Virus record (IMG/VR): IMGVR_UViG_3300021061_000036
Coordinates: 1-38,687 of that record
Length of the DNA stretch: 38,687 bases
DNA from: a virus
Reading direction: 5' to 3' (one strand)
This document shows, piece by piece, positions 10,001 to 31,367 of the stretch (within the stretch, counting starts at the first letter, position 1; each line of letters begins with the position of its first letter). Under the pieces are notes generated by a model. The model saw only the letters and a list, made by a program, of their open reading frames with translations. It searched no databases and was not told the DNA's origin. The position numbers were made by a program, and so were the translations under genes.

Positions 10001-12422
10001 GGGGAGCATGCGGACTTCGATCGTCGAAGCAGCCGGCATCATTGGTGTCGAAGGCGCCGGAGCCATGCTGGACGCCTTTAACGTCAACATCGGCAAGATC
10101 TCCTTCAAGGACCTGACTGGCGAGGAGATCGAGAAGGAGCTTGCGGCGGTCTTCTCCAAGCTCGGCGACGACATGGCAGCGGCTGCTGTCGCTGGCCTGG
10201 CCGAGTTCCAGAAGGTCGGGGAAGGGCAGTTCGAAACGCTCGCCCGCTTGGCCCGTGAGTACATGACCATCGATTCTTCGCTGAAGAGCATCGGCATGAG
10301 CTTCGGCGCAGTGGGTACGGCTTCGGTCGGTGCGCGTGCGGCTCTCATCGACTTGTTTGGTGGGTTGGACGCATTCCAAGAGCAGACAAGCTTCTTCCGC
10401 GAAAACTTCCTCTCCGAAGCCGAGCAGATGGCGCCGATTATCGCCGCCGTCGGTGCCGAGATGGCGCGGCTCGGTCAGTCGGGTGTGGATACCAAAAACG
10501 AGTTCAAGAACCTTGTCCTCGGGCTCAACCTGTCCACCGAAGCCGGTCAGTCCATGTACGCATCGTTGATGAGCGTGGCGCCAGCTTTCGCCAAGACGGT
10601 GGAATATACGGCCAAGCTCAACGGCGAAATGGGCAACACCGCCAAGACTGCCGAGCAACTGGCGCAAATCGAGAAGCAGCGCCGCTCGCTGGAAATCCAG
10701 CTGATGGAGGCACAGGGCGACGCACAGGGCGCTTTGAATGCTAAGCGGGCTGATGAGCTTGCTGCGCTCGATGAGACCCTGAGAGCCCTTCAGGCGCAAG
10801 TCTGGGCGGCTCAGGATGCGGCACAGGCACAGCGGGAACTGGCAGCGGCTCAGGAAGCCTTAAGCCGGCAACGTCGGGATCTCGACATTCAGCTCATGGA
10901 AGCGCTGGGCAACAGCACGGCTGCCCTCGCTGCCCGTCGCCAGGATGAGCTTGCCGCATTGGACGCCTCCCTTCGTCCTATTCAGCAACAGATTTGGGCG
11001 GCTCTCGACAACAAGGCGGCACAGGAAGCACTCGCCGCGGCTGAGGCACAAGCGGCGCAGGTTGCGGAGGAAGCAGCTGCGGCTGTCCTGGCCCTCGCTC
11101 AGCAAAGGCGCACGCTAGAGATTGAGCTGATGGAGGCTCAGGGTCTCACCACTGAAGCCCTTACCGCACGCCGTCGCATGGAACTGGAGGCGATGGATGC
11201 CAGCCTCCACGCCTTGCAACAGCAAGTCTGGGCCGCTCAGGACGCAGCAGTCGCCAATGCGGCTCTCGCACAGGCTCAGGCTGACGCGGCGGCAAGGGCG
11301 GAAGAGATTGCACGTCGTCGAGCAATCTTGGAAATCGAGCTTCTGCGGGCAACCGGACAGGAAGTCGAAGCGGTTGCCCGTGAGCGGGCTGCCGAGCTCA
11401 GTGCATTGGATGCAAGCCTTCATGCTCTGCAGCAGAATGTCTGGGCAGCGCAGGATGCCGCTAAGGCTCAGCAGGACTACGCATCTTCAGTCGACGACGG
11501 GGCACGGGCCGCGGAGGATCTTCGCCGCGCCCGTGTGTCAATGGAGGTTCGCCTTCTCGAACTAAGCGGCAACGCAGCAGCGGCGACGGCCTTGCGTCGG
11601 CAGGAAGAGCTCGCTGCCCTGGATGCAAGTCTGAGACCGCTCCAGCAGTCCATCTGGCATTTGGAGGACATTGCTGAGGCTGCCGAACGTGTCGGTAAGG
11701 CCAGAGACGTTCTGACGGACGCTTACAAGCGCGAGAGTGGGGCGCTTCAGGATACCATCGACAAGTTCAGCGGCTTCGGGGACAGCCTCCGCAAGTTCCG
11801 CGGCACGCTCGGGGCAACGGCGGACGGTGCAGCCGACATCTATCGCCAGGCACAGGCCCGCTTCGTCGACACAAGCTCACTTGCTCGCATGGGCAACGAG
11901 AAGGCTCTGGGCGAACTGGAGAACGTTGCACAGGACTTTCTCACTGCCAGCAAGAACCAGGCGGGGTCGCTTCAGGATTATCAGCGCGATGTTGCTCGGG
12001 TCATGCGCTCGGTGGACCAGGCTATCGGCTCCACGGATGAGGCGGTAGACTATGCTCAGGCGCAGCTGGACGCGCTGGACCAGTCAGTCGCCGGCCTAAT
12101 CGAAATTAACCAGAGCGTACTTTCCGTCCGCGATGCGATCGATGCGCTTGAGGCTGAAATGGCTTCCAGTGGGATCGTCCAACCGCAGGTCACGCAGGTT
12201 CCTTCGACGGCTTTCATGGCCAATAGCCAATCGGTGCAGGTGGATAACACGGCTGTCGTCAGTCAGCTTTCGAATATCGGTTCGGACGCTCGAGTTCACG
12301 CCGCCTCAATCGCCGAGATGCTGGGCAAGGTGGTTCGCTGGATTGATCGGATTGAGGGCGATGCGTTGCCCGTCAGAACCCTCGACGGTGACGTGATCGC
12401 CACTCGCGAAGTCTGGCCGTAA
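7059..12422 (+). CDS. tail tape measure protein
   Basis: 1787 residues from GTG 7059, with GGAAGGAGG just upstream. The N-terminus has the usual tape-measure pattern LQSEMAQVKKSVGGAMGSV, then YQIGDVATQFASGTPAMLIF and SQVVQSLSLMQGGAKGFIGF. Hydrophobic segments near residues 115-137, 765-795 and 888-908 may form the membrane-active part. Long Ala/Glu/Lys/Arg-rich stretches (about 330-390) are coiled coil. Residues about 1207-1548 hold five degenerate repeats. The tape measure fixes tail length; at about 0.15 nm per residue this predicts a tail near 270 nm. No lysozyme or peptidase motif was recognised. Confidence 0.92.
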   Translation: MKAGSLEIEILTNISRLQSEMAQVKKSVGGAMGSVTTDLERAASASSRFVRGQTAVTASAGQQRAGMQQLSYQIGDVATQFASGTPAMLIFAQQGSQVVQSLSLMQGGAKGFIGFLSGPWGATVMGAVTVLGMLITRKKDAKSASDGLTTALQYQKMTTSELTAAIHENLKASEKAIQSSYAMERAHLASAEAARVETVRKLNLAKANLEAAQSAQQAHAAQSPGDPGATGAGGALALRTGLHEMAIKRLNTAIGEADKTIRQRQIPLIRREVTAATDEAAAATLRYDKAEAGLTNRFSEGRLNAVSYQRELQKLTGIRDREVEAVKEAEKAQSRAEAAARAADKKAEAKARAEAKAAERRAAQEAKAAARIEARLALESSAAEATIGGISRVAAAYLESDAAGMIAEARANSVANSMKRGADIEAAAAQELRKNIVQRGEDAAKQIADLQASTRARELANTAVAAGTMTVEEANAAIQDEMALRPIATALAAAQARGYTDLAVELERIIGLMKQARVADRGSANQLATQSDIEKNKQQIDQLKLETQLLGVGNRERAVRLAQLAAEQKLKSRPGLDPNERAAFIKSEIDLANAQEDNREAADAFNASLEAQLGLMEQIDERANIMADVLESAFGRAGAALGDLLVTFSEYGVKQEQIALEEERRTRAAGSNQEELARIAIWSARERTIAEERFYGDAIGAAKGLFKENSTGYKAMVALEKVLAAIRIANMIKAIAVDLGMTAKSVANAGVRGSADAAAGAAKMFSFLGPFAFPVVAAMVALLASMGLKGLGGGSKGPSIPTAEELQERQGTGSVLGDTKAKSNSIENSLALMLKNTNRDLEYSNQMVRSLRAIESSIGNLASLIARQLGVGGGLDASSLNLGTVTKGGLLGGVPVVGALIGALFGKKTITRELHDQGIEFDPGTVGTIIANGITADLYQQVLKTSKKSGFLGLGKSTKTSIETSTSAADADLTGQVALLVGSMRTSIVEAAGIIGVEGAGAMLDAFNVNIGKISFKDLTGEEIEKELAAVFSKLGDDMAAAAVAGLAEFQKVGEGQFETLARLAREYMTIDSSLKSIGMSFGAVGTASVGARAALIDLFGGLDAFQEQTSFFRENFLSEAEQMAPIIAAVGAEMARLGQSGVDTKNEFKNLVLGLNLSTEAGQSMYASLMSVAPAFAKTVEYTAKLNGEMGNTAKTAEQLAQIEKQRRSLEIQLMEAQGDAQGALNAKRADELAALDETLRALQAQVWAAQDAAQAQRELAAAQEALSRQRRDLDIQLMEALGNSTAALAARRQDELAALDASLRPIQQQIWAALDNKAAQEALAAAEAQAAQVAEEAAAAVLALAQQRRTLEIELMEAQGLTTEALTARRRMELEAMDASLHALQQQVWAAQDAAVANAALAQAQADAAARAEEIARRRAILEIELLRATGQEVEAVARERAAELSALDASLHALQQNVWAAQDAAKAQQDYASSVDDGARAAEDLRRARVSMEVRLLELSGNAAAATALRRQEELAALDASLRPLQQSIWHLEDIAEAAERVGKARDVLTDAYKRESGALQDTIDKFSGFGDSLRKFRGTLGATADGAADIYRQAQARFVDTSSLARMGNEKALGELENVAQDFLTASKNQAGSLQDYQRDVARVMRSVDQAIGSTDEAVDYAQAQLDALDQSVAGLIEINQSVLSVRDAIDALEAEMASSGIVQPQVTQVPSTAFMANSQSVQVDNTAVVSQLSNIGSDARVHAASIAEMLGKVVRWIDRIEGDALPVRTLDGDVIATREVWP
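10677..11700 (+). repeat. five degenerate repeats within the tape measure gene
   Basis: Units begin near 10677, 10869, 11103, 11313 and 11523, with periods of 64, 78, 70 and 70 codons. Each has the plan RR-x-LEI-x-LMEA-x-G, then an Ala-rich segment, then ELAALDASL-x-LQQ-x-W-AAQDA. The DNA copies have diverged while the protein pattern is kept, so this is an old, selected duplication in the helical rod rather than a recent repeat. Confidence 0.85.
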
Positions 12423-13465: not shown

Positions 13466-14718
13466 TGCCCCTACCTACCGTGACGCCGCTACCGACGCCG
13501 CCTCAGCGGGGACAGGAGCCGGGAGAGTTCGTCCTGAATGCAGACACTTGGGTGGATGCCGTCACCACGTTTTCTAACCAATTGAATGTCTTCGCCCCTG
13601 CGCTTGTCTCGGAGTTTACCGCAATCGCGGTCGCAGCTGCAGCATCGAACGCGGCTGCCGCCCAGGCTGCTGAGGACGCAGCTGAGGCCGCCCGTGACCA
13701 GGCAGTAGCCGCAGCATCGTCGGTCAACGATGCCAATCTCGTCCACAAGACGGGTGCGGAGACGGTGGGAGGGTTGAAGACCTTTTCAGACGGCATCAAG
13801 ATCAACAACCAAACCCTGGACGGCCTCACTGCTGCCGGCCTCGCTCTAATCGAGGCAGCTGACGCACCAGCGCAGAGAGCCCTGCTGAATGCTTCCGGCT
13901 ATACCGTTGTTGCCCAGGCAACGAGCTTCACAATTGCGTCTGCCGATGCCGGCAAGATGTACGATGTCACGACAATGGCGGCGCCAATCACCGCCACGCT
14001 TCCAGCTGCAAGCTCGGTGAATGCCGAATTCTCAATCAAGATCATCAACCGCGCCTTCGACCAGAGCACGATCCGCTATGTCACTTTGACGCGGAACGGC
14101 TCGGACACCATCGACGGAACCGCAGCTAACCTCATCATCTACGGGGAGAACGTGACGCTGCGGCGCAATGCTGCCGGAACAGGATGGCTCGTTGAAAAGA
14201 GCAGGGAGGCACTTTGCTGGGACTTTGTCGCAGGCTCAACCGCAAGCGCCTTCGACTTCACCGTGCCCTTCAGCGACACGCAATTCGAAGCTTACATGAT
14301 CGAATATGCGCTGACCAACGGAGGCACGCAGCAGGAACTGGCTTTCAGGCTTGGCATCGGTGGGACGGTCATCACCACCAACAGCTATAATGTCGGCCAC
14401 ATGTACACCAACGCGGGTGCTACACCGACCGCGATCGCCGGCACCGCGAGCTCTTTCGCGTCAGTGAGGCCGCTGTTTGCTGCTGGCGCCAGTGTGTCCG
14501 GTATCATCATGATTGAGAATGCGCGGGGAACGGGCGGGGGAATGAGCGGTCCTCGCCTCAAAGGCCGTCATGACATGGCCCACGACTCAATTGGGTTGTG
14601 GTCAGCTAATTGCTCAACAGCTGGAGCGCTCAGCTCGTTTCGCATCTTCGCAGGCAGCGCTATCGATTTCACGGCTGGGTCGCGGTTCCGGATCTTCGGC
14701 TTAAGGAAGGGCAGCTAA
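13465..14718 (+). CDS. tail fibre protein
   Basis: 417 residues; the start overlaps the previous stop (TGATG). The Pro-rich beginning is followed by a segment of Ala-rich coiled coil (about 50-95) typical of trimeric fibres. Then comes LVHKTGAETVGGLKTFSDGI, a repeat motif common in phage fibre shafts, and beta-rich sections (TATLPAASSVNAEFSIKIIN and others). The C-terminal domain (about 245-417), with many Gly/Ala/Thr, may be the receptor-binding head. A small chaperone-like gene follows immediately. Confidence 0.8.
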   Translation: MPLPTVTPLPTPPQRGQEPGEFVLNADTWVDAVTTFSNQLNVFAPALVSEFTAIAVAAAASNAAAAQAAEDAAEAARDQAVAAASSVNDANLVHKTGAETVGGLKTFSDGIKINNQTLDGLTAAGLALIEAADAPAQRALLNASGYTVVAQATSFTIASADAGKMYDVTTMAAPITATLPAASSVNAEFSIKIINRAFDQSTIRYVTLTRNGSDTIDGTAANLIIYGENVTLRRNAAGTGWLVEKSREALCWDFVAGSTASAFDFTVPFSDTQFEAYMIEYALTNGGTQQELAFRLGIGGTVITTNSYNVGHMYTNAGATPTAIAGTASSFASVRPLFAAGASVSGIIMIENARGTGGGMSGPRLKGRHDMAHDSIGLWSANCSTAGALSSFRIFAGSAIDFTAGSRFRIFGLRKGS

Positions 14719-22254: not shown

Positions 22255-22296
22255 GGGGACTCCGATAAAGGTTGGGCGATTGGCTACGCCACCGGG

Positions 22297-22692
22297 CTAG
22301 TCGGGCTTCGCCCCGAGCCCTTCGGTCTCGGCCATTCGGCGACTATCCCTATCGCGGTTCGCTACATCATGGCTGAGCGAGTGGTAGATGATACCCGCCA
22401 GCGCGTACTCGTCCCATGCGCAGTTGACGGGCGACACGTTGAGGCAACCACATAGCAGCTCTGTTTGCTCCCGGTCGCTCATGAGCGCCATCCGTTCTTC
22501 AACGACGTCGAGCAAAACGCGAAGTAGCCTGCGCTCGTTCTTGGGAAGCCATCGAGGCTTGCCATCGTAACGTTCAGGCTCGAAGCGCGAGGGATCGAAG
22601 CGGGAACCGCCAAGACCCGCAGGGGCTTGGTCCGAAGGACGAGAGCCCGGTGCCCCTGGCACGCGCCCAGAAACATCGTCTATCGCGTCCAT
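22297..22692 (-). CDS. hypothetical protein with repeat-element tail
   Basis: 131 residues from ATG 22692; GAGGGAG lies eight bases upstream, favouring this start over GTG 22701. The N-terminal 40 residues are Gly/Pro/Arg-rich and probably disordered. The middle is helical (NERRLLRVLLDVVEERMALM, REQTELLCGC, WDEYALAGIIYHSLSHDVA). The C-terminal RRMAETEGLGAKPD is encoded by a copy of a palindromic element also found at the ends of two other minus-strand genes. Function unknown. Confidence 0.68.
   Translation of the reverse strand: MDAIDDVSGRVPGAPGSRPSDQAPAGLGGSRFDPSRFEPERYDGKPRWLPKNERRLLRVLLDVVEERMALMSDREQTELLCGCLNVSPVNCAWDEYALAGIIYHSLSHDVANRDRDSRRMAETEGLGAKPD
22301..22345 (-). repeat. palindromic element, copy A
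   Basis: It shares GGCTTCGCCCCGAGCC and, after a short variable part, GTCTCGGCCATTCGG with copy B (27141-27214), in the same strand and reading frame. It encodes the last dozen residues of the overlapping gene. GGGCT and AGCCC can pair. It lacks the first hairpin found in copies B and C. Confidence 0.7.
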
Positions 22693-22695
22693 TCT

Positions 22696-22914
22696 ATGCA
22701 CTCCCTCTCATACCTAGACTCTCTTATTCCTCTATCTAAAGAGGATAAGGTACAGACCCCTGAGCTACGTGAGGCCTTGAAGAGCCTCTTACCCCACGTA
22801 ACCAACAGAGCCTTCCTGGATAACTTCTGGGACGCAGCAGGAGCGAGCTGCGCGGTCGGGCGCTCACAGGGGATGCGAGCCGCTATAAATGGAATTCGGC
22901 GGCACCTGAAATAG
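22696..22914 (+). CDS. possible small plus-strand gene between minus-strand genes
   Basis: 72 codons from ATG 22696. The product looks like a compact helical protein: TPELREALKSLLPHVTNRAF, LDNFWDAAGASCAVGRSQGM and INGIRRHLK. The opposite strand also has an open frame here (22680-22949) that would overlap the methyltransferase stop by ATGA, but its product is a basic, irregular sequence. I prefer the plus-strand reading from amino-acid pattern alone; no good ribosome-binding site is seen. The choice is uncertain. Confidence 0.45.
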   Translation: MHSLSYLDSLIPLSKEDKVQTPELREALKSLLPHVTNRAFLDNFWDAAGASCAVGRSQGMRAAINGIRRHLK

Positions 22915-22945
22915 CCGTGGAGAAGCTTGGGAAGCTTACGGCGGG

Positions 22946-24106
22946 TCATGCTGCCTCCGCTCGCGTCTGGAGCGCTTCCACGGCGGCGATACGCTGGCCT
23001 ATCCACCTCACCACCGGCACAGCCATGCTGTTGCCGAGCATCTTGTAGCGAGGCCCGTCAGCCATGAGCTTGCCGCGATAGGGGACTAGGGTGAAGTCCG
23101 GCGGAAACCCTTGAAGGCGTTCGCACTCACGGGGGGTAAGGCGACGAACGGCTGACGCAGTCGCAATGCCGTTGTGCCGGCGACTTCCCATGTTAGCGTC
23201 TAGCGTGGCGTGGGTTTCAACCTCGCGAACACCACTCTGCGAGCTTTGGAAGGCAACGTAGTTCTGCTGCTGCGCGCCAGCATCCGCTGCTATCGCGCCG
23301 ACGATCTGCCCATCCCCCCCAATCTGCCGCACCTCGGATCGACTATTCTGGGTGAAGGCGAGCACAGTGCTGTTCGGGTCGGTGTTCGTGTCCAGAGCGC
23401 CTGTGATTTCCCCTGTTTCCCAAGCCCCGCAGTTGCCGCTCGTTTGAAAGGCTGTGGCGACTAAGCCGCCATCGCAGTCGAAGTCGGTTCCGAGGCCACC
23501 GCCTGCAGAGCGGCGGCTAGGGATGGTGGGAGCTGCTTGCCCCTTTTCTCGGCGCGGCGCAGGATGCCCTTGCAAGCTGTGGCGCTCAAATAATACCGCT
23601 GCGGCACGTCGCCAGTCTCCAAGATGTCCGACAAGGAAGACGCGGCGGCGGCGCTGTGGAACTCCAAAGTGCTGAGCGTCAAGAACTCGGTAGGCGAACC
23701 CATACCCGAGTTCGACCAGGCCCCCGAGTATGGAACCAAAGTCCCTTCCTCCGTTCGACGACAGGACGCCGGGGACGTTCTCCCAAACCAGCCATCTGGC
23801 CCGCGTCCGGTCAGCAAGCCTAAGAAACTCGAGCGCCAGGTTGCCACGGTCGTCATCCAAGCCTCCTCGGAGGCCTGCAACGCTGAAGGATTGGCAGGGG
23901 GTGCCTCCGACAAGAAGGTCAATTGGCCCATATTCGTCGCCTTGAATGGTGGTGAAGTCGCCGTGCAGCGGGACGTGCGGATAGTGGTGAGCGAGAACGG
24001 CTCGCGGCGCTGCATCGATTTCCGAGAAGAACGCGGGCTCAAAGCCCAAGCCATGCCAGCCCATCGTTATGGCTTCGATGCCGGCGCAGACGGAGCCGTA
24101 TTTCAC
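22946..24106 (-). CDS. DNA (cytosine-5-)-methyltransferase, orphan
   Basis: 386 residues from GTG 24106, with GGAG seven bases upstream. The C5-methyltransferase motifs are in order: YGSVCAGIEAITMGWHGLGF (I, SAM binding), GGTPCQSFSVAG (IV, with the catalytic PCQ Cys), WENVPGVLSSNGG (VI, ENV), FGVPQRRRRVFLVG (VIII), then a variable target-recognition region of about 140 residues. RRLTPRECERLQGFP (IX) and YKMLGNSMAVPVV (X) follow. No restriction enzyme gene is adjacent, so it probably protects phage DNA from host restriction or marks it. It lies immediately beside attP, a usual place for late-acquired genes. Confidence 0.93.
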   Translation of the reverse strand: MKYGSVCAGIEAITMGWHGLGFEPAFFSEIDAAPRAVLAHHYPHVPLHGDFTTIQGDEYGPIDLLVGGTPCQSFSVAGLRGGLDDDRGNLALEFLRLADRTRARWLVWENVPGVLSSNGGRDFGSILGGLVELGYGFAYRVLDAQHFGVPQRRRRVFLVGHLGDWRRAAAVLFERHSLQGHPAPRREKGQAAPTIPSRRSAGGGLGTDFDCDGGLVATAFQTSGNCGAWETGEITGALDTNTDPNSTVLAFTQNSRSEVRQIGGDGQIVGAIAADAGAQQQNYVAFQSSQSGVREVETHATLDANMGSRRHNGIATASAVRRLTPRECERLQGFPPDFTLVPYRGKLMADGPRYKMLGNSMAVPVVRWIGQRIAAVEALQTRAEAA

Positions 24107-24125
24107 GCGAACGCTCCACGAACAT

Positions 24126-24166
24126 CGTGTGCCCGAAATTGTGACTCTCGTGTGCCGCCGTGTGCC
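24126..24166 (+). other. attP arm: CGTGTGCC repeats (left cluster)
   Basis: CGTGTGCC occurs at 24126-24133, 24149-24156 and 24159-24166. The first is followed after four bases by ATTGTGAC (24138-24145), exactly as in the right arm copy. Such clustered direct repeats beside a recombination core are expected for integrase arm-type sites; binding is inferred. Confidence 0.55.
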
Positions 24167-24233
24167 CGATGGCTCCGCTTTGTTCCGGATTGCCGAAACG
24201 GCCCAATCGCTGTAACCCGCAGAAATCCTAGGA

Positions 24234-24274
24234 GACCCCGTAGCTCAGCAGGATAGAGCATCAGATTCCTAATC
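24234..24274 (+). other. attP core: 5' half of a tRNA-Arg(CCT) gene
   Basis: The 41 bases read as the first half of a tRNA. They comprise acceptor strand GACCCCG, TA, D-stem GCTC, loop AGCAGGATA, D-stem GAGC, A, anticodon stem TCAGA, loop TTCCTAA with anticodon CCT, and TC. After that the sequence no longer matches a tRNA and no T-arm or acceptor 3' strand follows. Half a tRNA beside a tyrosine integrase is the standard sign of an attachment site, here probably crossing over at the anticodon loop. The stop codon of the minus-strand XRE gene lies inside it. Confidence 0.75.
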
Positions 24275-24499
24275 ATCTGCTTTTTCCCTTGATTCTGCGC
24301 TTTTTGCGCGTCGTGTGCCACGGATTGTGACTAAAAGCAGTTCGATGGCCACAGAAGCAGGGCCGCTGACAGGCGTTTCGCCTTGTTCCCAACGGCGCAC
24401 CTGACGCTCGCCATTCGGCCCCATACGGAGGCGCGCAGCAAGCTCAGCTTGTGAAAGACCAAGCCTCTGACGCGCTTCCCTGACTTCGGTAGGGGTCAT
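24269..24499 (-). CDS. XRE-type helix-turn-helix regulator
   Basis: 76 residues; ATG 24499 overlaps the upstream stop. EVREARQRLGLSQAELAARL is a typical first half of an XRE/Cro helix-turn-helix, followed by RQVRRWEQGETPVSGPASVA. This is the variant in which the recognition helix is short and ends in W-x-x-G. It is the last gene of the leftward operon, and its stop lies in the attP core, so integration changes what lies beyond its 3' end. It may control integrase or the adjacent methyltransferase. Confidence 0.82.
   Translation of the reverse strand: MTPTEVREARQRLGLSQAELAARLRMGPNGERQVRRWEQGETPVSGPASVAIELLLVTIRGTRRAKSAESREKADD
24312..24331 (+). other. attP arm: right copy of the 20-bp repeat
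   Basis: CGTGTGCC, four bases, ATTGTGAC: the same 20-base plan as 24126-24145 with 16 fixed positions identical, in the same orientation, on the other side of the tRNA half. Probable arm-type integrase binding site. Confidence 0.55.
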
Positions 24500-24729
24500 T
24501 TGCTAATTGGCTCAACGATCACGCTGATGACGCGCACGGTCTCACCAGTCTCGCGGTCGATCAGATCTTTCCCAATCTTGCGACGCTCGCCGATGGCGTG
24601 CATTTCAGCTGTCTGTTCGCTGCGGGTCTGATGAGTGCGAACCTTGCCGCAGGCATAGCTTGTGATGACCTGATGGGTCTTCGGCGCTGCAAGAGCGGAG
24701 TTGATAAGGTCCATCGCGTTCATCTTCAT
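24496..24729 (-). CDS. hypothetical protein between integrase and XRE regulator
   Basis: 77 residues from ATG 24729, GGGAGA upstream. It is basic and probably mixed alpha/beta: MDLINSALAAPKTHQVITSY, then KVRTHQTRSEQTAEMHAIGE and a C-terminal strand ETGETVRVISVIVEPIS. It starts 18 bases after the integrase stop and overlaps the XRE gene by four bases. No family recognised. Confidence 0.68.
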   Translation of the reverse strand: MKMNAMDLINSALAAPKTHQVITSYACGKVRTHQTRSEQTAEMHAIGERRKIGKDLIDRETGETVRVISVIVEPISK

Positions 24730-24747
24730 TCTCCCGTGTCCGGTGGG

Positions 24748-25782
24748 TCACTGACCCGATGCACTCTTGTCGGACATTTTGTCCGGTTTGTCAAGCGTCA
24801 AAGTTGTCGAAACGCGGTCAAATGCGGTCACGGCCTCGTCAGGTTTGATGTGCGCGTACCGCATCGTCATGCTGATGCTGGAGTGCCCCAGAGCCTCACA
24901 GACATCAGCAATATCAGCGCCCGCCTGACGCGCCCATGATGCGAAGGTGTGACGCAGGTCGTGAAACTTGAAGTTCTCGATCTCCGCAGTCTCAAGCGCC
25001 TTTTCCCAACGCTTCCTGAAATTGGTGGTGTCGAACACCTTGCCCCTGCGCTTGTCAGCTGGCGTGGTGGATAGCATCGCCATCAGTACGGGCGTAATCC
25101 GCACGGTGTGCTCCTTGCCGCCCTTAATGCCGAGCAGGATCAACTTGCGGTCGAGCTTGATTTGCTTCCAGTCTAGATTGAGCACGTTGGCCTTGCGAAG
25201 CCCCGTCAGCACCGCGCAGAGCATAATAGGCACCAAGCGAGGTTCGGCCGCCTTCAGCGCCTCCCATTCCTCGATCGACAGGAACCTCTTTCGCCATGCG
25301 GCCTCCTTCGCTTTCAGCTTCTTCCAGGGGATCGCCGGTAGCGGCTGGGCGTGAAGCTCATGGCAATGCTCCAGAGCCGCCCGCAGCATGGCAAAGTCCC
25401 TGTTGACAGTCCGCTCTTCAATCTTCCGGCCTGGCGGTGGAGATGCGCGGCGTTTTGCGCGGTAGTCGATAAGCTTGTTCGCAGTGAGCTCGGTGACGGG
25501 AGTGTCGGCGCCGATGATGTCGGACAGGCATTCGAACTGCTTGAACACCGTACGCCACCCTCTCTGGTGCTTCCCTTTTGCTTCCCAGTAGGTTCCGAGG
25601 ATCTGGCGCAATGGCCAGACGGGCACCTGCTTGAAAGATTGCCGCGCCTTATGCTTTTCGTCTTCCTCGACTAGCTTGGCTTTTGAGAGCGTAGTCTCGC
25701 CCGTGCTGCCTCGAAATCGCTGACCGTTGATGGTGAAGCTGTACCAGAGGTACGGCGAGCCCTTCCGCGGCTTGCATGACAT
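24748..25782 (-). CDS. int: tyrosine-type phage integrase
   Basis: 344 residues. The N-terminal arm-binding part (KGSPYLWYSFTINGQRFRGS) is followed by a core-binding SAM-like domain (about 80-150) and the catalytic domain. Visible catalytic features are the first Arg in LTGLRKANVLNLDW, a Lys-containing beta turn around GGKEHTV, HDLRHTFASW with the His-x-x-Arg pair, LGHSSISMTMRYAH with the conserved His, and the nucleophile Tyr. It would integrate the phage at the adjacent attP with a host tRNA-Arg. The start overlaps the excisionase-like gene by 112 bases, a long overlap for this operon. Confidence 0.95.
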   Translation of the reverse strand: MSCKPRKGSPYLWYSFTINGQRFRGSTGETTLSKAKLVEEDEKHKARQSFKQVPVWPLRQILGTYWEAKGKHQRGWRTVFKQFECLSDIIGADTPVTELTANKLIDYRAKRRASPPPGRKIEERTVNRDFAMLRAALEHCHELHAQPLPAIPWKKLKAKEAAWRKRFLSIEEWEALKAAEPRLVPIMLCAVLTGLRKANVLNLDWKQIKLDRKLILLGIKGGKEHTVRITPVLMAMLSTTPADKRRGKVFDTTNFRKRWEKALETAEIENFKFHDLRHTFASWARQAGADIADVCEALGHSSISMTMRYAHIKPDEAVTAFDRVSTTLTLDKPDKMSDKSASGQ

Positions 25783-25958
25783 TGACGAGCGCCTTCTACG
25801 AACGAGTTGAGGTCATCGGGCGTGTACCTAACACAGCGCCCGTATTGGATGTAAGGAAGGTGCCCCGCCTGCCGTGCTTTGCGGAGGGTGCGGGTGCATA
25901 GCCCCAGCTTCTCTGCTGCTTGGGCCTCGGTCAGAAGGGTAACAACCTCACGCGCCAT
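25671..25958 (-). CDS. excisionase-like helix-turn-helix protein
   Basis: 95 residues from ATG 25958 (a longer frame to 26087 is open but runs through a repeat element and is unlikely). VVTLLTEAQAAEKLGLCTRT, then LRKARQAGHLPYIQYG and RCVRYTPDDLNSFVEG, matches the HTH_17/excisionase (MerR-like winged helix) family. Its basic tail overlaps the integrase start. Position directly upstream of int supports a directionality factor. A palindrome lies 33-63 bases upstream. Confidence 0.85.
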   Translation of the reverse strand: MAREVVTLLTEAQAAEKLGLCTRTLRKARQAGHLPYIQYGRCVRYTPDDLNSFVEGARQCHASRGRARRTSGTASPSTVSDFEAARARLRSQKPS

Positions 25959-25990
25959 GGGACGAGCGCCTTCGGTCAAGACGCTGCCTA

Positions 25991-26021
25991 GCATCCATGT
26001 TAGCACGCTTAGCATGGATGC
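25991..26021. promoter_or_regulatory. inverted repeat upstream of the excisionase gene
   Basis: GCATCCATG (25991-25999) is the exact complement of CATGGATGC (26013-26021); between them TTAGC occurs twice as a direct repeat. It could be an operator or an RNA hairpin for the excisionase/integrase pair. Confidence 0.5.
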
Positions 26022-26029
26022 TTGCCTTG

Positions 26030-26085
26030 GCAGCGGCTTGAGGGCGAAGCCCCGCCGGCCCGGTGCTGCGAAGCAGCAGGCGCAC
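26030..26085 (+). repeat. palindromic element, copy D (inverted, intergenic)
   Basis: Read on the minus strand it contains GCGCCT-x-CTGCTTCGCAG-x-ACCG, matching the first hairpin region of copy C, then GGCTTCGCC and AAGCCGCT as in the second part. TGCTGC and GCAGCA pair around GAA; GGGC and GCCC pair around GAA. Its orientation is opposite to copies A-C and it lies outside a convincing gene. Confidence 0.6.
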
Positions 26086-26096
26086 ATCTTCTTTCC

Positions 26097-26345
26097 TCAT
26101 CCTCCCTGTCCCTCATTAATAAGGGAACGGATGGACTTGGGTTTGGTCCAGCTAATGTCATCAACGAGCGCACACGCACCGCACATCCGCTCCCACGCCA
26201 CGGTGGTCCCAATCGTGACCTGCTTCCACGGCTGCCATCGATGTCGCTTCGGCAGCGACGGATGCTGGCCGCAACTCATCGCGGTTCCCCCCATGTAGGC
26301 TAGAGGCTGTTTGGGTTCCTCTGGCCGCCGTCTAAACTGAGCCAT
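26097..26345 (-). CDS. small hypothetical protein with Cys pairs
   Basis: 82 residues from ATG 26345. The sequence is Pro/Arg-rich at the start (FRRRPEEPKQPLAYMGG) and has a first Cys/His segment (MSCGQHPSLPKRHRWQPW), a strand (KQVTIGTTVAWERMCGACAL) and a C-terminal basic part. The Cys-x-x-x and Cys-x-x-Cys (CGAC) arrangement suggests a possible metal site. No family recognised, and no clear ribosome-binding site was seen. Confidence 0.58.
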   Translation of the reverse strand: MAQFRRRPEEPKQPLAYMGGTAMSCGQHPSLPKRHRWQPWKQVTIGTTVAWERMCGACALVDDISWTKPKSIRSLINEGQGG

Positions 26346-26382
26346 GAAATCGGGCTTCACTGTTCAGCACTCCTAAGCCCGG

Positions 26383-26610
26383 TCATGCTGGTGAACCTCC
26401 GCGTGCCATCGCCTTTCGCCACCTTGCCAAGAAGTCGGTCAGTTCTTCGCACCGTTCGACTACCGCATCCGGATAGTCCGTTTCGCTGTTGTCGCACCCA
26501 ATCTCGTCGGTCATCGCGGCGAGCAGGTTTTCGGCTTTCGTCTGAAGCGTGATGGCTCGGCGTTCCCATTGAGCAAGACGCCGCTGCGGGACTTTGATGA
26601 AATCAGTCAT
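26383..26610 (-). CDS. small helical hypothetical protein
   Basis: 75 residues from ATG 26610, overlapping the preceding stop by four bases. FIKVPQRRLAQWERRAITLQ is followed by TKAENLLAAMTDEIGCDNSE and CEELTDFLARWRKAMARGG. It is predicted to be all helix and resembles the short phage proteins that begin with a VP-x-x-x-L-x-x-W-x-R segment. Function unknown. Confidence 0.75.
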   Translation of the reverse strand: MTDFIKVPQRRLAQWERRAITLQTKAENLLAAMTDEIGCDNSETDYPDAVVERCEELTDFLARWRKAMARGGSPA

Positions 26611-26951
26611 CGCCCCTTCCCCTGTCCCTGCATGGCAACCGCAAGCGTCTGGACAGGCGAGGCGGTCCGCACGGCGTGACCTCGCTCGATCTCGATTGTT
26701 GGCCCGTAGGTTCTGAGCAACTCGTCGCGATACGACTGCCAAGTTCCCTCGATCTCAAGTGGAAAGTCCGGTCTCTGAGCTGCGACCGCCTCCCGAATGC
26801 GATCCACCGCGTCGGGTAGCTCATGCGTCCAGACGGCATGGCCGAGCACCCATTCGGCGGCCTCGTGAACTCCCGCGAAACGCTCTACGAGTGAAATCCC
26901 GCTCGCCAGGGTTCCGAGAGCAAGCGTTGAGATCGGCTTCGTCTCGCTCAT
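26607..26951 (-). CDS. hypothetical phage protein (DUF7736-like pattern)
   Basis: 114 residues from ATG 26951. The N-terminal part STLALGTLASGISLV, VHEAAEWVLGHAVWTHELPD resembles a small phage family in which EAAE-x-V-L-G-H-x-V-W/Y-T-H-E is conserved (I recall it as DUF7736; the name should be checked). A helix (AVDRIREAVAAQRPDFPLEI) and a C-terminal region follow. Both ends overlap neighbours by four bases. Function unknown. Confidence 0.75.
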   Translation of the reverse strand: MSETKPISTLALGTLASGISLVERFAGVHEAAEWVLGHAVWTHELPDAVDRIREAVAAQRPDFPLEIEGTWQSYRDELLRTYGPTIEIERGHAVRTASPVQTLAVAMQGQGKGR

Positions 26952-27139
26952 TTCCACTGTCCCTGCATGGAGGAGATTGCTGCGTCTCGACGAGCTTGCC
27001 GACACTGGTCGCAAGTGCAGCCACCAAGACACGTGCATGTTTCTCTGAAGCCGCATGAGCCGGGCTTCTGTGGAGGGTGTGCCTCAAATGGCGCCAGTGC
27101 TTCCAGTTGTGGGGATATACTGGATAGGGATGTGCTCAT
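26948..27139 (-). CDS. small cysteine-rich protein
   Basis: 63 residues from ATG 27139. A compact cluster, CGFRETCTCLGGCTCDQC (about 32-49), has seven Cys in eighteen residues, as in a zinc or iron-sulfur knuckle. The N-terminus is Ser/Pro-rich and the C-terminus basic. Start and stop overlap neighbouring genes (ATGA at both). No family recognised; metal binding is inferred from Cys spacing only. Confidence 0.72.
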   Translation of the reverse strand: MSTSLSSISPQLEALAPFEAHPPQKPGSCGFRETCTCLGGCTCDQCRQARRDAAISSMQGQWK

Positions 27140-27486
27140 TGGGCGTCTCCCTTCGGGACCGCGCCACTCAGGCTTCGCCCCGAGCCGGTTCCCGTCTCGG
27201 CCATTCGGTGAGTGTCGACTGACGCAGGAGGCCACGGCTCACCAGCATCACGCGCCAGGTCAGGAAGCTCATAGAGCATCCACGCCTCATCGTATCCGAG
27301 ATGCCCGTTAACGAAGAGACGCCCAACGAGGTCATGGCAGGGGATACACTGACGGTAGGAATTGAATTCCCCGTCTGACAATCCAGCCTCGTCATAGCTG
27401 CGCTCTCCTTTTTCTACGGCACGTCCACACGTTGCACAGAAGTGCGGTGTTCGGCGCGTGCGAAGGATTGACCGCCAGAAACTCAC
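27136..27486 (-). CDS. zinc-ribbon-like hypothetical protein with repeat-element tail
   Basis: 116 residues. FCATCGRAVEKGERSY and QCIPCHDLVGRLF give a CxxC...CxxC metal-binding plan, with LGYDEAWMLYELPDLARDAG in the second half. The last 25 residues (from HRMAETGTGSGRSLSG to GDAQ) are encoded by palindromic element B and look unrelated to the folded part. Overlaps by four bases at both ends. Function unknown. Confidence 0.78.
   Translation of the reverse strand: MSFWRSILRTRRTPHFCATCGRAVEKGERSYDEAGLSDGEFNSYRQCIPCHDLVGRLFVNGHLGYDEAWMLYELPDLARDAGEPWPPASVDTHRMAETGTGSGRSLSGAVPKGDAQ
27141..27214 (-). repeat. palindromic element, copy B
   Basis: The plus strand has GGGCGTCTCC, a short hairpin (TCCC-TTC-GGGA), ACCGCG, GGCTTCGCCCCGAGCC and GTCTCGGCCATTCGGTGA. 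It aligns with copy C through the first hairpin and with copy A through the second part. It encodes the C-terminal tail of the overlapping minus-strand gene and ends beside its stop codon. Confidence 0.75.
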
Positions 27487-27908
27487 GCCGCCTCTCCTTC
27501 GCGACGCAGGTCAGTGACATCGCAGCCTAGCCAAGAGGAAACCGTGCTCAGCGCCCAATCGATGAAGGCGGCACGCTCCGGCTCCGTCATCCGTGAGAAA
27601 GACGTGGACTCGTAGTCCTTGACCTGCTCACCGCTCGGCAGCGTCACCACACGGACAAGGCCGTAGCGGTCCTTCAGAACCTTGTGCAGCAGGTCCACGG
27701 TTAGCCCAGGTGCCTTCTCGTCCAGCATGGGAACGGCAACCCCGAGGCAGGCCCAATACAAGCCATTGCGCCTGACGTTACCCCGCATGGACTTGAACTC
27801 GATGCGGACCTGGCCTTCGATAGCTGCCAAGGCTTTCGTTGCTGCCTCGTTCGCGGGGCGAAGGCTGCCGAGCACCTTCTTAAAGAGGAGGGGAGGGGCA
27901 TCAGGCAT
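27483..27908 (-). CDS. DUF1367-like phage protein
   Basis: 141 residues from ATG 27908. FKKVLGSLRPANEAATKALA and GQVRIEFKSMRGNVRRNGLY are typical of DUF1367-like phage proteins. So is the pattern LLHKVLKDRYGLVRVV, then SFSRMTEPERAAFIDWALST. It is about the usual length. Members lie in recombination/replication operons, and the role is unknown. It overlaps the HNH/Ref-like gene by eight bases. Confidence 0.75.
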   Translation of the reverse strand: MPDAPPLLFKKVLGSLRPANEAATKALAAIEGQVRIEFKSMRGNVRRNGLYWACLGVAVPMLDEKAPGLTVDLLHKVLKDRYGLVRVVTLPSGEQVKDYESTSFSRMTEPERAAFIDWALSTVSSWLGCDVTDLRREGEAA

Positions 27909-28272
27909 CAAAGCTTTCCTTCCAGAGCCTGTCTGATTCCGCGTACAGATCCACCCCATGCACACGATAGAACCCGCCGTGGCCCAGGCGCTCTACTGAC
28001 AGCTTGCCGAAGTCGTGCTGGTGACATGCAGGACACAGAGGCACTATCCGCCGCTCCGATCGCCTCAATCGCCCGCCGTGAATGGTCGCCGTCACGTGAT
28101 GGATGGACACCGGACGTGCTCCGCAGTTGATGCAGGGCATCTCCCGCAGCCGCAGCTCGTGCCGCTTCTCCTCGGCCGTCTGCCCCGGCTTGCGGCGCGG
28201 TTGCGGGCAGCGTGACGGGTCTTTCCGCCGCGGTGTTTCGCGTTTGCGCTTCAGGGGCAAGCTTCTGAGCAT
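27901..28272 (-). CDS. HNH-type nuclease, Ref/DUF968-like
   Basis: 123 residues. A basic N-terminus is followed by PCINCGARPVSIHHVTATIH, then RRIVPLCPACHQHDFGKLSV. This gives a CxxC...HH...CxxCH plan as in HNH proteins of the P1 Ref/DUF968 group. FYRVHGVDLYAESDRLWKE at the end also fits that group, in which an F-x-x-x-x-G-x-D segment follows. Ref is a RecA-dependent nuclease; the same activity here is inference. It lies among recombination genes. Confidence 0.8.
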   Translation of the reverse strand: MLRSLPLKRKRETPRRKDPSRCPQPRRKPGQTAEEKRHELRLREMPCINCGARPVSIHHVTATIHGGRLRRSERRIVPLCPACHQHDFGKLSVERLGHGGFYRVHGVDLYAESDRLWKESFDA

Positions 28273-28286
28273 TCACGGTGCCGAAC

Positions 28287-28532
28287 CTAGAACGGCACGT
28301 CGTCGTCGAGGCCAACAGGCTCAGGCGCTCGTGACTGATGGCGAGCCTCCCCAGGCTGGCGGGGTTCAAACAGGTTCGCCACAACCCGTCCCTCTGCATC
28401 CGGAATGGGCAGGGCGTCGAACACCAGCTGCGTCCCTCCGTTGTCGTTCAGCCAAGCCGTGCCGACCTTGACCCAATAGGTGGTCCCGTCCTTCTTCTTG
28501 CGCGGGGCCATGATGTCTTTGCGAGTGCTCAT
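28287..28532 (-). CDS. small protein with SSB-like acidic C-terminal tip
   Basis: 81 residues; ATG 28532 overlaps the exonuclease stop. After a basic start (APRKKKDG) come strands YWVKVGTAWLNDNGGTQLVF and DALPIPDAEGRVVANLFEP, then a disordered linker and a final GLDDDVPF. That ending closely resembles the DDDIPF tip by which bacterial SSB recruits partners. The body is too short for a full SSB but could be a small OB-like fold. It may bind single-stranded DNA or mimic the SSB tip beside the exonuclease and annealing protein. Confidence 0.78.
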   Translation of the reverse strand: MSTRKDIMAPRKKKDGTTYWVKVGTAWLNDNGGTQLVFDALPIPDAEGRVVANLFEPRQPGEARHQSRAPEPVGLDDDVPF

Positions 28533-29161
28533 GCTGCTTCCTTCTGTTCGTAGATGTTGAGGAGGTCGGAGACGGTCGCATCGACGTCCGCCAGGAACTC
28601 GGAGACGTCGGCCTCGAGCTGTTCGATTGCTTCGTCATCACGCGGCACTCGTTGGACAAAGAGCCGCATCGCCTCGGGCAGCCGGGGATCGTAAGACACG
28701 AAGTCACACCATTGCCGGCCTGTGCAGGCCATCTGCCAAAGCATCTGCGTGACGTATTTCTCAGGCACCTTCTGCCCGAGCAGCGTGTCCAGATGGCTTG
28801 CCGTATTCGGACACTTGATTTCGACCAGGCCATCTTCACCGACCAGGCCGTCAGGAGACGCGCCGCTCATGGGGATGGTGGGGTGGTCCACAAAGGCAAC
28901 CTCCTCCACATCCACGTTCCGGCGAAACTCATAGGCGCGGCGAGCTTCTGGCTCCTTGTCTGTGCCCCATTGCATGGCCGAATTGCTGAATGTCTCAGCG
29001 GGGGTGCCAGTAAGGCGCTCGGCAATCAGGCGAGCCTTGTAGTTGGCACGGGATGCTCCCCAGCCAGACTTTGTGCGGGCAATGATGTCCGCAATGCAGG
29101 AAGCCGTTGCCTTGCCGCACCTGGCGGCGAACCACTCCGGAGACCTTTGCTCGAATGTCAT
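28529..29161 (-). CDS. lambda-exonuclease-like (YqaJ) recombination nuclease
   Basis: 210 residues. QRSPEWFAARCGKATASCIA is the standard N-terminal motif of YqaJ/lambda-Exo nucleases (S-x-E-W-x-x-x-R-x-G-x-x-T-A-S). GASPDGLVGEDGLVEIKCP carries the catalytic Asp and Glu-x-Lys. YVTQMLWQMACTGRQWCDFV follows as expected. It degrades one strand from DNA ends 5' to 3' so the annealing protein can act. It is separated from the ERF-type gene by an HNH-AP2 gene. Confidence 0.92.
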   Translation of the reverse strand: MTFEQRSPEWFAARCGKATASCIADIIARTKSGWGASRANYKARLIAERLTGTPAETFSNSAMQWGTDKEPEARRAYEFRRNVDVEEVAFVDHPTIPMSGASPDGLVGEDGLVEIKCPNTASHLDTLLGQKVPEKYVTQMLWQMACTGRQWCDFVSYDPRLPEAMRLFVQRVPRDDEAIEQLEADVSEFLADVDATVSDLLNIYEQKEAA

Positions 29162-29649
29162 GCGAATTCTCCCATGTACTGAATACGAGCGATGTCGTAG
29201 GCCGCAGCCGCTTCCTCGGGCGTGTCAAAGGTGCCGACCTGCTTTTGCTCGCCACAGACAGTGATGCGGGCGGAATAACGGCCTGACTTGTTCCTCCGGA
29301 CGCCCATCGGCAGATCCCGCTTGCGTGGGTTCTTGATGTTCTGCGCGTTCTGGGTTGCATTCGCCGGACGAAGATTGACCCACCTATCATCGGTGGAATC
29401 ACCGTTCGCGTGATCAATCATGTCCTCGGGGTCTCGGCCGGTCATGTAGAGGTAAGCCAAGCGAGAGCGGCGATACTTAATCCCACCTATTTGGATGAGG
29501 TGGTAATGCTTGCCGCTCGGATTTGTTTGAAGCGTGCCAGCCTCTTCTCCAAGAAGCTCAGCATGACCGGCTGGAGGTTGAATCCAGTAGAACACGCCGC
29601 GTCTAGGTGCATAGAGAAGGATGGTTCTCAGATAGATCGCATCCATCAT
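29158..29649 (-). CDS. HNH endonuclease with AP2 DNA-binding domain
   Basis: 163 residues. The HNH part includes YRRSRLAYLYMTGRDPEDMI, DHANGDSTDDRWVNLRPANA and TQNAQNIKNPRKRD, with D-H-x-N-x-x-x-x-D-N/D-R-x-x-N-L-R. The C-terminal part (MGVRRNKSGRYSARITVCGE, then GTFDTPEEAAAAYDIARIQY) is an AP2 domain. Such proteins are free-standing homing endonucleases. It sits between exonuclease and annealing genes with four-base overlaps at both ends, so an insertion has been neatly fitted to the operon. Confidence 0.92.
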   Translation of the reverse strand: MMDAIYLRTILLYAPRRGVFYWIQPPAGHAELLGEEAGTLQTNPSGKHYHLIQIGGIKYRRSRLAYLYMTGRDPEDMIDHANGDSTDDRWVNLRPANATQNAQNIKNPRKRDLPMGVRRNKSGRYSARITVCGEQKQVGTFDTPEEAAAAYDIARIQYMGEFA

Positions 29650-30248
29650 GCAGCCTCCTTCTCAACGGCATTGAGGCTATCCACCGCGTCCTTGAACAGG
29701 CGAGACGGCAGCTCCTTGACGCTCTGGATCTGATACTTCTTGCAGAACCGCTGGGCAGAGACGCCCTTCGACTGCATCAGCGTTGCGATCGTTGCCCACT
29801 GAGCGTCGTCGATCTTGCCGTTGTTGTTCTGTGCGCGGGGTGCGGTATCATGCGGCTGTCCGCTGGCGACCGTGCCGTCATCGTCTTCCTCGGCTGCGAT
29901 GCCGAATGCGGCGCAGAGCGAATAGCGCTTGAAGTAGGTGAGAAGCGAACCCGCTTCCTGCGGCTTGGCCGGCAACTGCGGCATGGGCACGGAGCAGTCC
30001 AGGTGCTCGCCGCTGACGTGAATAATGCGGGTCAGCAGTTCACCGTTCGTGGCGGATTGGATGAACCAGAGGCCGTGCCTGGTGAGCACTGGCCGCAGCA
30101 TTTCGATGATGCTGTCCAACGTGGCGTAGTCGAAGCTGTACTTACCGGGCACGCGCACGGTGCGGTTCTTCGTGGGAGCATGGAGCTCAGCCTGTGCAGC
30201 CACGAGCGCGGCGGCGAGTGTTTCCTGCTTGGCGGCGGTGGCCATCAT
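29646..30248 (-). CDS. ERF-family single-strand annealing protein
   Basis: 200 residues from ATG 30248 (the ATG at 30245 is also possible), with CGGAGAAG upstream. The ERF signature is clear: LAAALVAAQAELHAPTKNRT at the start, FDYATLDSIIEMLRPVLTRH, and GSLLTYFKRYSLCAAFGIAA followed by EEDDDG. It pairs complementary single strands and partners the exonuclease encoded downstream. The C-terminal 60 residues (DDAQWATIATLMQSKGVSAQ) form a helical accessory domain. It is the one gene in this stretch preceded by a gap (30249-30309). Confidence 0.93.
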   Translation of the reverse strand: MMATAAKQETLAAALVAAQAELHAPTKNRTVRVPGKYSFDYATLDSIIEMLRPVLTRHGLWFIQSATNGELLTRIIHVSGEHLDCSVPMPQLPAKPQEAGSLLTYFKRYSLCAAFGIAAEEDDDGTVASGQPHDTAPRAQNNNGKIDDAQWATIATLMQSKGVSAQRFCKKYQIQSVKELPSRLFKDAVDSLNAVEKEAA

Positions 30249-30309
30249 CTTCTCCGTGTTGGAATGGAAAGGGGTTGGGTGAACCTCTGCTGGTTTAGGT
30301 GAAGGGAGG

Positions 30310-30510
30310 TCATGACTGGGCGCCTCCTGCTTCGCAGGACCGCGTGCTATTCGCTTCGCTCACCGAGCCGCTTTGCGTCTCGTCCCTATCGGGTGACGCC
30401 CGCATGGCGCGGTCTCGCCCATCAAGAAGACAGGGTGCGCAGAAATACCCTAGAGTGCGGCAATGGAGAGCAGCTGAATACTCGCCACAAGACCAGCATG
30501 GCCTCATCAT
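30310..30510 (-). CDS. zinc-finger-like small protein with repeat-element tail
   Basis: 66 residues from ATG 30510, which overlaps the PAPS-reductase-like stop. RPCWSCGEYSAALHCRTLGY and FCAPCLLDGRDRAMR give two Cys-x-x-Cys pairs with an intervening Cys. The last about 25 residues, through ETQSGSVSEANSTRSCEAGG, are encoded by palindromic element C and are Ser/Gly/Glu-rich. A folded body of about 40 residues plus this tail is unusual. Function unknown. Confidence 0.65.
   Translation of the reverse strand: MMRPCWSCGEYSAALHCRTLGYFCAPCLLDGRDRAMRASPDRDETQSGSVSEANSTRSCEAGGAQS
30318..30397 (-). repeat. palindromic element, copy C
   Basis: The plus strand has GGGCGCCTCC, hairpin TCCTGC-TTC-GCAGGA, ACCGCG, a CGCTTCGCT part, CCGAGCCG, GTCTCG and ATCGGGTGA. 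It aligns with copy B along its whole length. The first hairpin is longer than in B and differs on both arms while still pairing. It encodes the tail of the overlapping minus-strand gene. Confidence 0.72.
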
Positions 30511-31367
30511 GCTGCTTCTCCGGCGCACCAGAGGCCGCATTCAGCGTCGAACTCGTCATCGTCTCCGACCTCGAGCGGGAGCAGGGGAGACAAGGCCACA
30601 TCTTGCACTAGGTCGCTGATGCTACGCTCGGTGACGAACCGCCCCTTGCCGATCGTCTTTTCCATCCGGTCCCACCAGACAGCACTCGCGGGATTATCCC
30701 GGATGATGCGCTTCAGAATACGCTCACCCTTCAAGAAGCAGAGGTCGCAGTTGCCCTCCCATCCCTTGATGCCAAGGTCGAAGGACTGTGCTGCCCAGAA
30801 AGCGAGCACATCATTTCTCCGAACCATAGTCGCTAGGCGGGCCATCGGCATGATGGTAGTCCAAGGGAACTCACCGCTCTCGTTTTTCGCTACCTGAGTC
30901 AGAACACGCCGCTGTTCATCCCAGCGGAGGCCGATGACGTTGTTCCATGCGACGTAACCTTGCGCTTCCATGAAGTCGGCACACACTTGCATCTTCAGAT
31001 GCTCGGTGCAGAAACGCATCGCCTGGTTAGGGGTGAACTTCTTGCTCTCGATTAGAGCCTCGAACGGCTCACCGTTACGCGCTGCGCTGTTGTAGCCGAC
31101 CTCTTCGAACCGCTCCGCAACTGGTGTCCGCTTCAGCCGGGAGCGCCACTCCAGCCACCGCACCCGCACGTTCCACTGGGTCGCGCAATCGTGCACGAAG
31201 CGAAGCGTCTCTTCTCGCTCCTTGCCCGTGTTCGCGAAGCAGACATGCACGTCATCGGGCAGCTTGCCGTCATAGGCATCTAGGATATGCCAGAGCATGT
31301 AGCCGCTGGTTCGGCCGCCGCTGAAGCTAATGAGCGCTGGACCGTCTATGCGATAGGGGTTGGTCAC
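30507..31367 (-). CDS. PAPS-reductase-like (PP-loop) phage protein
   Basis: 286 residues from GTG 31367 (GTGA with the previous stop). ALISFSGGRTSGYMLWHILD holds the SGGxTS PP-loop for ATP or adenylyl substrate binding. DDVHVCFANTGKEREETLRF, a Cys-containing segment AMRFCTEHLKMQVCADFM and GNCDLCFLKGERILKRIIRD are typical of phage members of the phosphoadenosine-phosphosulfate reductase/DndC superfamily. Substrate is unknown; such genes are common beside phage recombination genes. No phosphorothioation partners are nearby. Confidence 0.88.
   Translation of the reverse strand: MTNPYRIDGPALISFSGGRTSGYMLWHILDAYDGKLPDDVHVCFANTGKEREETLRFVHDCATQWNVRVRWLEWRSRLKRTPVAERFEEVGYNSAARNGEPFEALIESKKFTPNQAMRFCTEHLKMQVCADFMEAQGYVAWNNVIGLRWDEQRRVLTQVAKNESGEFPWTTIMPMARLATMVRRNDVLAFWAAQSFDLGIKGWEGNCDLCFLKGERILKRIIRDNPASAVWWDRMEKTIGKGRFVTERSISDLVQDVALSPLLPLEVGDDDEFDAECGLWCAGEAA

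Follow-up and report, generated by a model that had tools for sequence, protein, structure and literature searches.

Palindromic elements of Rickettsia are dispersed and are read in frame in unrelated proteins. The PeSL cassettes of phage T4 and the SAS/ESAS sequences of mycobacteriophages are gene-boundary stem-loops that are tied to the shuffling of small genes. Triloops of the C-GNA-G type, found in the hairpin promoters of the N4 virion RNA polymerase and in d(GCGNAGC) minihairpins, are very stable in DNA. Frpo/ssi, the single-strand promoters of F-like conjugative plasmids, were reportedly described by Masai and Arai in 1997. On the F plasmid, Frpo2 and Frpo1 are needed in vivo for the early expression of the genes next to them, ssbF and ygeA/B, from single-stranded DNA (PMC9849209). 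Frpo, also named ssi, additionally primes complementary-strand synthesis (PMC7690428, PMC7736820), and a published survey counts Frpo homologues in the leading regions of conjugative elements (PMC11541004).

The window, i.e. the whole 38,687-nt stretch of viral DNA that was analysed, is a temperate siphophage that encodes a portal, a tape measure, an integrase, an exonuclease and an Erf protein; its matches to phage DNA are confined to methyltransferase and recombination genes. When IMG/VR was searched with a 16-base and then with a gapped core pattern, the same layout of about 90 nt was obtained from dozens of phage contigs. A covariance model, R1, was seeded on the window elements A and B and built from 51 related viral sequences. 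Read along the element strand, the ~90-nt element comprises a terminal stem (P1), a two-pair helix, an inner stem (P2) and the hairpins P2a, P3 and P4, followed by a side hairpin (P5). P1 occurs as GCGAT/ATCGC, GCGTC/GACGC and GCGCC/GGCGC, among other variants; the only pattern in its flanks is YC ahead of the stem and CCAA behind it. P2 is either Watson-Crick or carries tandem G-A, P2a is CC..GG or CCC-GNA-GGG, P3 is CCGAGAC..GGCTCGG including an A-G mismatch, and P4 is GGC-GNA-GCC; the hairpin loops are of the C(GNA)G type. The invariance of P3 and P4 is partly imposed, since these two served as search seeds; P1, P2 and P5 did not. The copies in the window and the genes around them are as follows.

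Element A, 22268-22357, minus strand: P1 GCGAT/ATCGC; R1 score 93.8 bits (an identical copy, L045, is in the training set); the DNA fold agrees with the model.
Element B, 27135-27227, minus strand: 93 nt, P1 GCGTC/GACGC; R1 score 96.1 bits (in the training set).
Element C, 30312-30412, minus strand: P1 GCGCC/GGCGC; R1 score 44.2 bits, E 1.2e-8 (outside the training set).
Element D, 25950-26091, plus strand: about 47 nt additional in the P3 loop; R1 score 44.2 bits, E 1.1e-8 (outside the training set).
Element E, 22583-22674, plus strand: inverted relative to A; R1 score 60.5 bits, E 1.3e-12 (outside the training set).
Small ORF with an N-terminal tail from E and a C-terminal tail from A, 22297-22701, minus strand: body at 22358-22582, no known family.
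Small ORF with a C-terminal tail from B, 27136-27486, minus strand: tail from about residue 87.
Small ORF with a C-terminal tail from C, 30310-30540, minus strand: its stop overlaps the next start (ATGA).
Tyrosine integrase, 24748-25782, minus strand: phrog_1, E 2e-56.
YqaJ/RecE-like exonuclease, 28529-29161, minus strand: phrog_149, E 3e-50.
Erf-like single-strand annealing protein, 29646-30248, minus strand: phrog_2324, E 3e-37.

The initial annotation of this DNA had recognized A, B, C and D as homologous copies and had overlooked E. R1 finds all five, with a GC content of 0.65-0.70 in their cores; C, D and E were outside the training set and are thus independent confirmations. The four loci had been placed correctly, but the coordinates given for them covered only the inner parts of the ~90-nt elements. 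The DNA fold of B equals the model structure exactly (-24.1 kcal/mol, vs -18.5 for its complement), and some P2 pairs are disrupted in C. Among the 51 sequences, 91.8% of the cells were paired, with 1335 Watson-Crick, 16 G-T and 23 A-C cells. Double changes were found in 248 cells, compared with 78.7 +/- 6.7 in shuffles (0/500 reached the real value), and one-sided changes in 14. The compensatory exchange of TCCC-TTC-GGGA for TCCTGC-TTC-GCAGGA, first noted between B and C, corresponds to hairpin P5. As far as our literature searches show, no family of scattered palindromes that have compensatory changes and run in frame into unrelated proteins had been described from such phages.

In-frame C-terminal tails on three unrelated proteins had also been proposed for A, B and C, and these are confirmed. 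However, tails occur at both protein ends, so that the element is better described as a gene-boundary bracket than as a C-terminal tail. E and A bracket ORF 22297-22701 with 225 bp in between, and the complement of E encodes the N-terminal tail. In ORF 27136-27486 the conserved domain is confined to residues 10-54 (phrog_19515, phrog_7314), and no relatives of this ORF were found in viral contigs. Element C extends to the start codon of the following gene. D had been taken for an inverted intergenic copy; it is indeed inverted, but it overlaps, in antisense, the beginning of the gene that lies upstream of the integrase (ORF 25671-26087). Beside the integrase, at 24238-24280, lies GTAGCTCAGCAGGATAGAGCATCAGATTCCTAATC, which resembles part of a tRNA and is a likely attP core, although a complete tRNA is not predicted by ARAGORN.

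R1 searches of phage and sphingomonad genomes, a check that the initial annotation had suggested, revealed copies in 48 IMG/VR records, with 1-18 copies per phage, and in 13 of 120 Sphingomonadaceae genomes (at E 1e-6), where some bracket pairs look like prophage. Other hosts include Acetobacteraceae, Hyphomonadaceae, sponge-associated Gammaproteobacteria and Chloroflexi, and Bacteroidales. Neighbouring copies at most 1.5 kb apart alternate in orientation (108 vs 24 of 132 pairs, p 3e-14), with their 3' ends outward. Pairs of the (-)(+) type commonly enclose one small ORF, and tight (+)(-) pairs, 36-95 nt, enclose a stop/start junction; the 5' side of the element thus faces the gene and its 3' side the gene boundary. 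Since the copies lie at the very gene edges, reading frames run through them. Many enclosed ORFs start immediately beyond one element and stop immediately beyond its partner, which gives them both N- and C-terminal tails, and known domains are located between the element-encoded tails. In the cultured Sphingopyxis phage VSN-002, the annotated gene_19 spans exactly from element to element, and gene_29 has an N-terminal tail. GC-rich DNA also contains random open frames. In one phage (G039, L235), two bracketed genes at 1370-1800 and 9947-10363 encode closely related proteins, a possible duplication of a cassette.

The family had been likened to the palindromic elements of Rickettsia. It shares with them that it is palindromic, dispersed, in frame in unrelated proteins and absent from homologues; it differs in that the phage elements lie at both gene ends and are homologous to a plasmid single-strand site. 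The R1 matches point instead to the Frpo/ssi core of conjugative plasmids as its relative. On 18 kb of the F plasmid leading region, R1 gave two matches only (E 7e-8 and 4e-6), upstream of ssbF and of ygeA/B and about 5 kb apart, which are the Frpo2 and Frpo1 sites (PMC9849209). A weak match (E 0.015) was found in ColIb-P9, a plasmid that also has ssi sites. The bacterial-type copy was found by BLASTN in 4314 plasmids of PLSDB, 3252 of them conjugative and most of them F-like. The plasmid cores lie 470-760 nt from gene starts, and in five multi-copy plasmids every copy is on one strand. In bacterial genomes, R1 matches also occur near conjugation, ArdC and resolvase-like genes, these proteins having been judged by reading their sequences. 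We found no report of Frpo-type elements in phages in the literature searched.

In common with Frpo/ssi, the phage element has a homologous core, a folded single strand and an intergenic position, and is linked to early accessory genes (methyltransferases, SSB, anti-defence genes). These sequence comparisons give good support for placing the phage copies in the family of Frpo/ssi cores. They differ from Frpo/ssi in consisting of the core alone, in occurring many times per genome and on both strands, and in lying at immediate gene edges, where they are translated. The window cores contain no -10/-35-like sequence, and no promoter was predicted at the elements in a scan. In the five multi-copy plasmids, every copy is on the template strand of the genes of a conjugative leading region, whereas orientation alternates in the window and in other phages, and the fold of A, B and C is on the coding strand, opposite to the plasmids. 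The phage copies therefore fall short of complete Frpo promoters: they lack both the promoter part and the strand arrangement. In L231, 5' of the core at 13474-13563 (minus strand), F Frpo has a second stretch, CCGCCGCAACGACGTGAAGCGCGGTTTGCGAAACGGCGTTGCCC, which resembles the outer stem and P5 in reduced form.

Copies are also present in single-stranded DNA phages. Two circular microviruses with a Phage_F capsid (L290 and L298) have an intergenic copy on the coding, i.e. virion, strand (E 1e-8 and 4e-8). On the coding strand, too, lie a copy between VP1 and VP2 of the gokushovirus KT264808, a copy after VP2 of MG945815 and a partial match in MH572438; in microvirus MW202568 the fold is on the non-virion strand. 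A fold that lies between genes on the packaged strand resembles what a complementary-strand origin would be expected to look like, and the same position on the virion strand is a likeness to the G4-type complementary-strand origins. However, the classic G4 and alpha3 have no R1 match, and the gokushovirus copies are putative origins. In a further microvirus (L232, 5280-5417), a different hairpin of about 70 nt replaces P3 and P4, and P1, P2a and P5 are kept.

We also considered whether the fold is one of DNA or of RNA. The element strand is better folded than its complement in 48 of the 51 sequences when DNA energies are used, compared with 28 of 51 when RNA energies are used. Minimum-energy DNA folds are close to the model for window elements A, B and E, F Frpo2 and one microvirus copy, and partly so for C. 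The N4 promoters and minihairpins have in common with the element the C-GNA-G triloops that are so stable in DNA; the phage element differs from them in its multi-branched 90-nt fold and has no known dedicated polymerase. C(GNA)G was found in 148 of 192 P5 triloops vs 59 of 3058 other triloop hairpins of the same genomes, a count that is supporting and not independent, since R1 itself somewhat prefers such loops. The C(GNA)G loop of the d(GCGNAGC) type is an exceptionally stable DNA minihairpin (PMC4686876). Sense frame 2 is open in 205 of 262 elements, where about 163 are expected; the bias is modest, and we therefore make no claim that the element is designed for translation. From the strict covariation with almost no G-T, the C(GNA)G loops and the strand preference under DNA energies, we conclude that the element probably acts as folded single-stranded DNA and would fold in this way in vivo, and that the evidence points away from coding as its function. 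A structured RNA that works in the phage mRNA, as a ribosome-binding or stability element between genes, seems very improbable to us. The sense copies B and C do end genes, with a purine-rich site just 5' of the next start codon, but G-U pairs are no commoner than A-C, the strand asymmetry is seen with DNA energies only, numerous copies run antisense to the bracketed gene, and no relevant Rfam match was obtained for the window or the related loci. HEARO/IscB guide RNAs, riboswitches and terminators were also tried as candidates, and were rejected for having no match or no associated gene.

Sequence is exchanged at the element edges. Identical elements with unrelated flanks, the homology stopping at P1, occur twice in phage L010 and also between L025 and G016, and in L013, L019 and L046 the element and its 3' flank are common and the 5' genes are different. 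The DUF1643 gene of G016 has an element-encoded tail, and its homologue in G008, 81% identical and free of elements and tail, ends where the G016 element starts; a comparison with homologues lacking the tail had been suggested in the initial annotation. These events would also be produced if the elements were recombination linkers, i.e. short common sequences at gene borders that let Erf-type annealing exchange small genes; the structure would then serve solely to expose or align single strands, without priming. Gene bodies that exist both with and without brackets, and an exonuclease and an Erf protein encoded in the window, fit such linkers as well. Nevertheless, annealing needs sequence identity, and copies in one genome diverge widely while keeping the structure; the two copies of a bracket resemble each other no more than other pairs do (0.189 vs 0.175, p 0.17); and single copies are found in microviruses and plasmid leading regions. 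We regard linkers as a possible but doubtful account; together with an element moved by a transposase, they are the chief competitors of the reading preferred below. The movement of copies with exact P1-to-P1 borders, including the two identical copies in L010, might suggest a MITE-like or palindromic mobile element that is moved by a transposase and tolerated at gene ends. Such an element is improbable, since no target-site duplication is visible at copies with unrelated flanks, orientation is bound to gene boundaries, and the flanks of P1 show just YC and CCAA. Bracket partners show no special likeness and no terminal-repeat pairing, which speaks against a transposon of the classical, terminal-repeat kind. 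Integron attC sites were rejected, because one site per cassette in the same orientation is expected there, whereas here orientation alternates and sites lie at both gene ends. The T4 PeSL and SAS/ESAS sequences are likewise stem-loop elements at gene boundaries connected with the shuffling of small phage genes; they have a promoter or ribosome-binding motif and one orientation, whereas the phage elements described here have no promoter and an orientation mirrored at the two gene ends.

On balance, we lean towards an Frpo/ssi-core element that brackets exchangeable genes in phages and that likely primes complementary-strand synthesis. Once a single strand is exposed, the ~90 nt would form a closed structure of several hairpins, next to which a conserved 3' flank (CC, A-rich) stays unpaired. 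In plasmids and single-stranded DNA phages, this would most likely be the site at which the host RNA polymerase or primase lays RNA, and synthesis from the fold would then proceed into the 5' side. In double-stranded temperate phages, repeated copying would have turned the core into a gene bracket, and the two strands of each small accessory gene could have one copy apiece at their 3' ends, with its 5' side geneward. Either gene strand, when single-stranded during Exo/Erf recombination or replication, could be restored to duplex, and the brackets would thereby favour gene exchange. Frpo RNA runs from the fold into the 5' side, which in the phages is the gene on both strands, and a priming site therefore fits. 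Against the priming bracket, the phage copies abut genes without the promoter part (-10/-35) of Frpo, and double-stranded DNA phages have no obligatory single-stranded stage. A bolder scheme, speculative and in our opinion unlikely, is that small accessory genes travel as single-stranded cassettes, both strands of which have a folded priming site at their 3' end; a strand captured by an annealing recombinase would be copied to duplex, and the same site would be the core of the plasmid single-strand promoter and the complementary-strand origin of gokushoviruses. One searchable motif would tie together plasmid entry (Frpo), that origin and the shuffling of small genes in temperate phages. The R1 covariance model detects the site across several phyla, the Frpo core becomes directly testable through compensatory mutation, and the element may help to pick out candidate cassettes of anti-defence genes in phages.

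Two observations concern copies in other hosts. Bacteroidales phages and a prophage (L072, L076, L078, L090, L095, L110, L129) differ from the multi-copy phages of Alphaproteobacteria: they have a single copy that is less rich in GC (0.53-0.59) and lies close to genes of the peptidoglycan-binding or lysis type. In a betaproteobacterial MAG, a C4 antisense RNA of the type found in phages P1/P7 (L177, 3428-3511, minus strand) is 1.3 kb away from an element.
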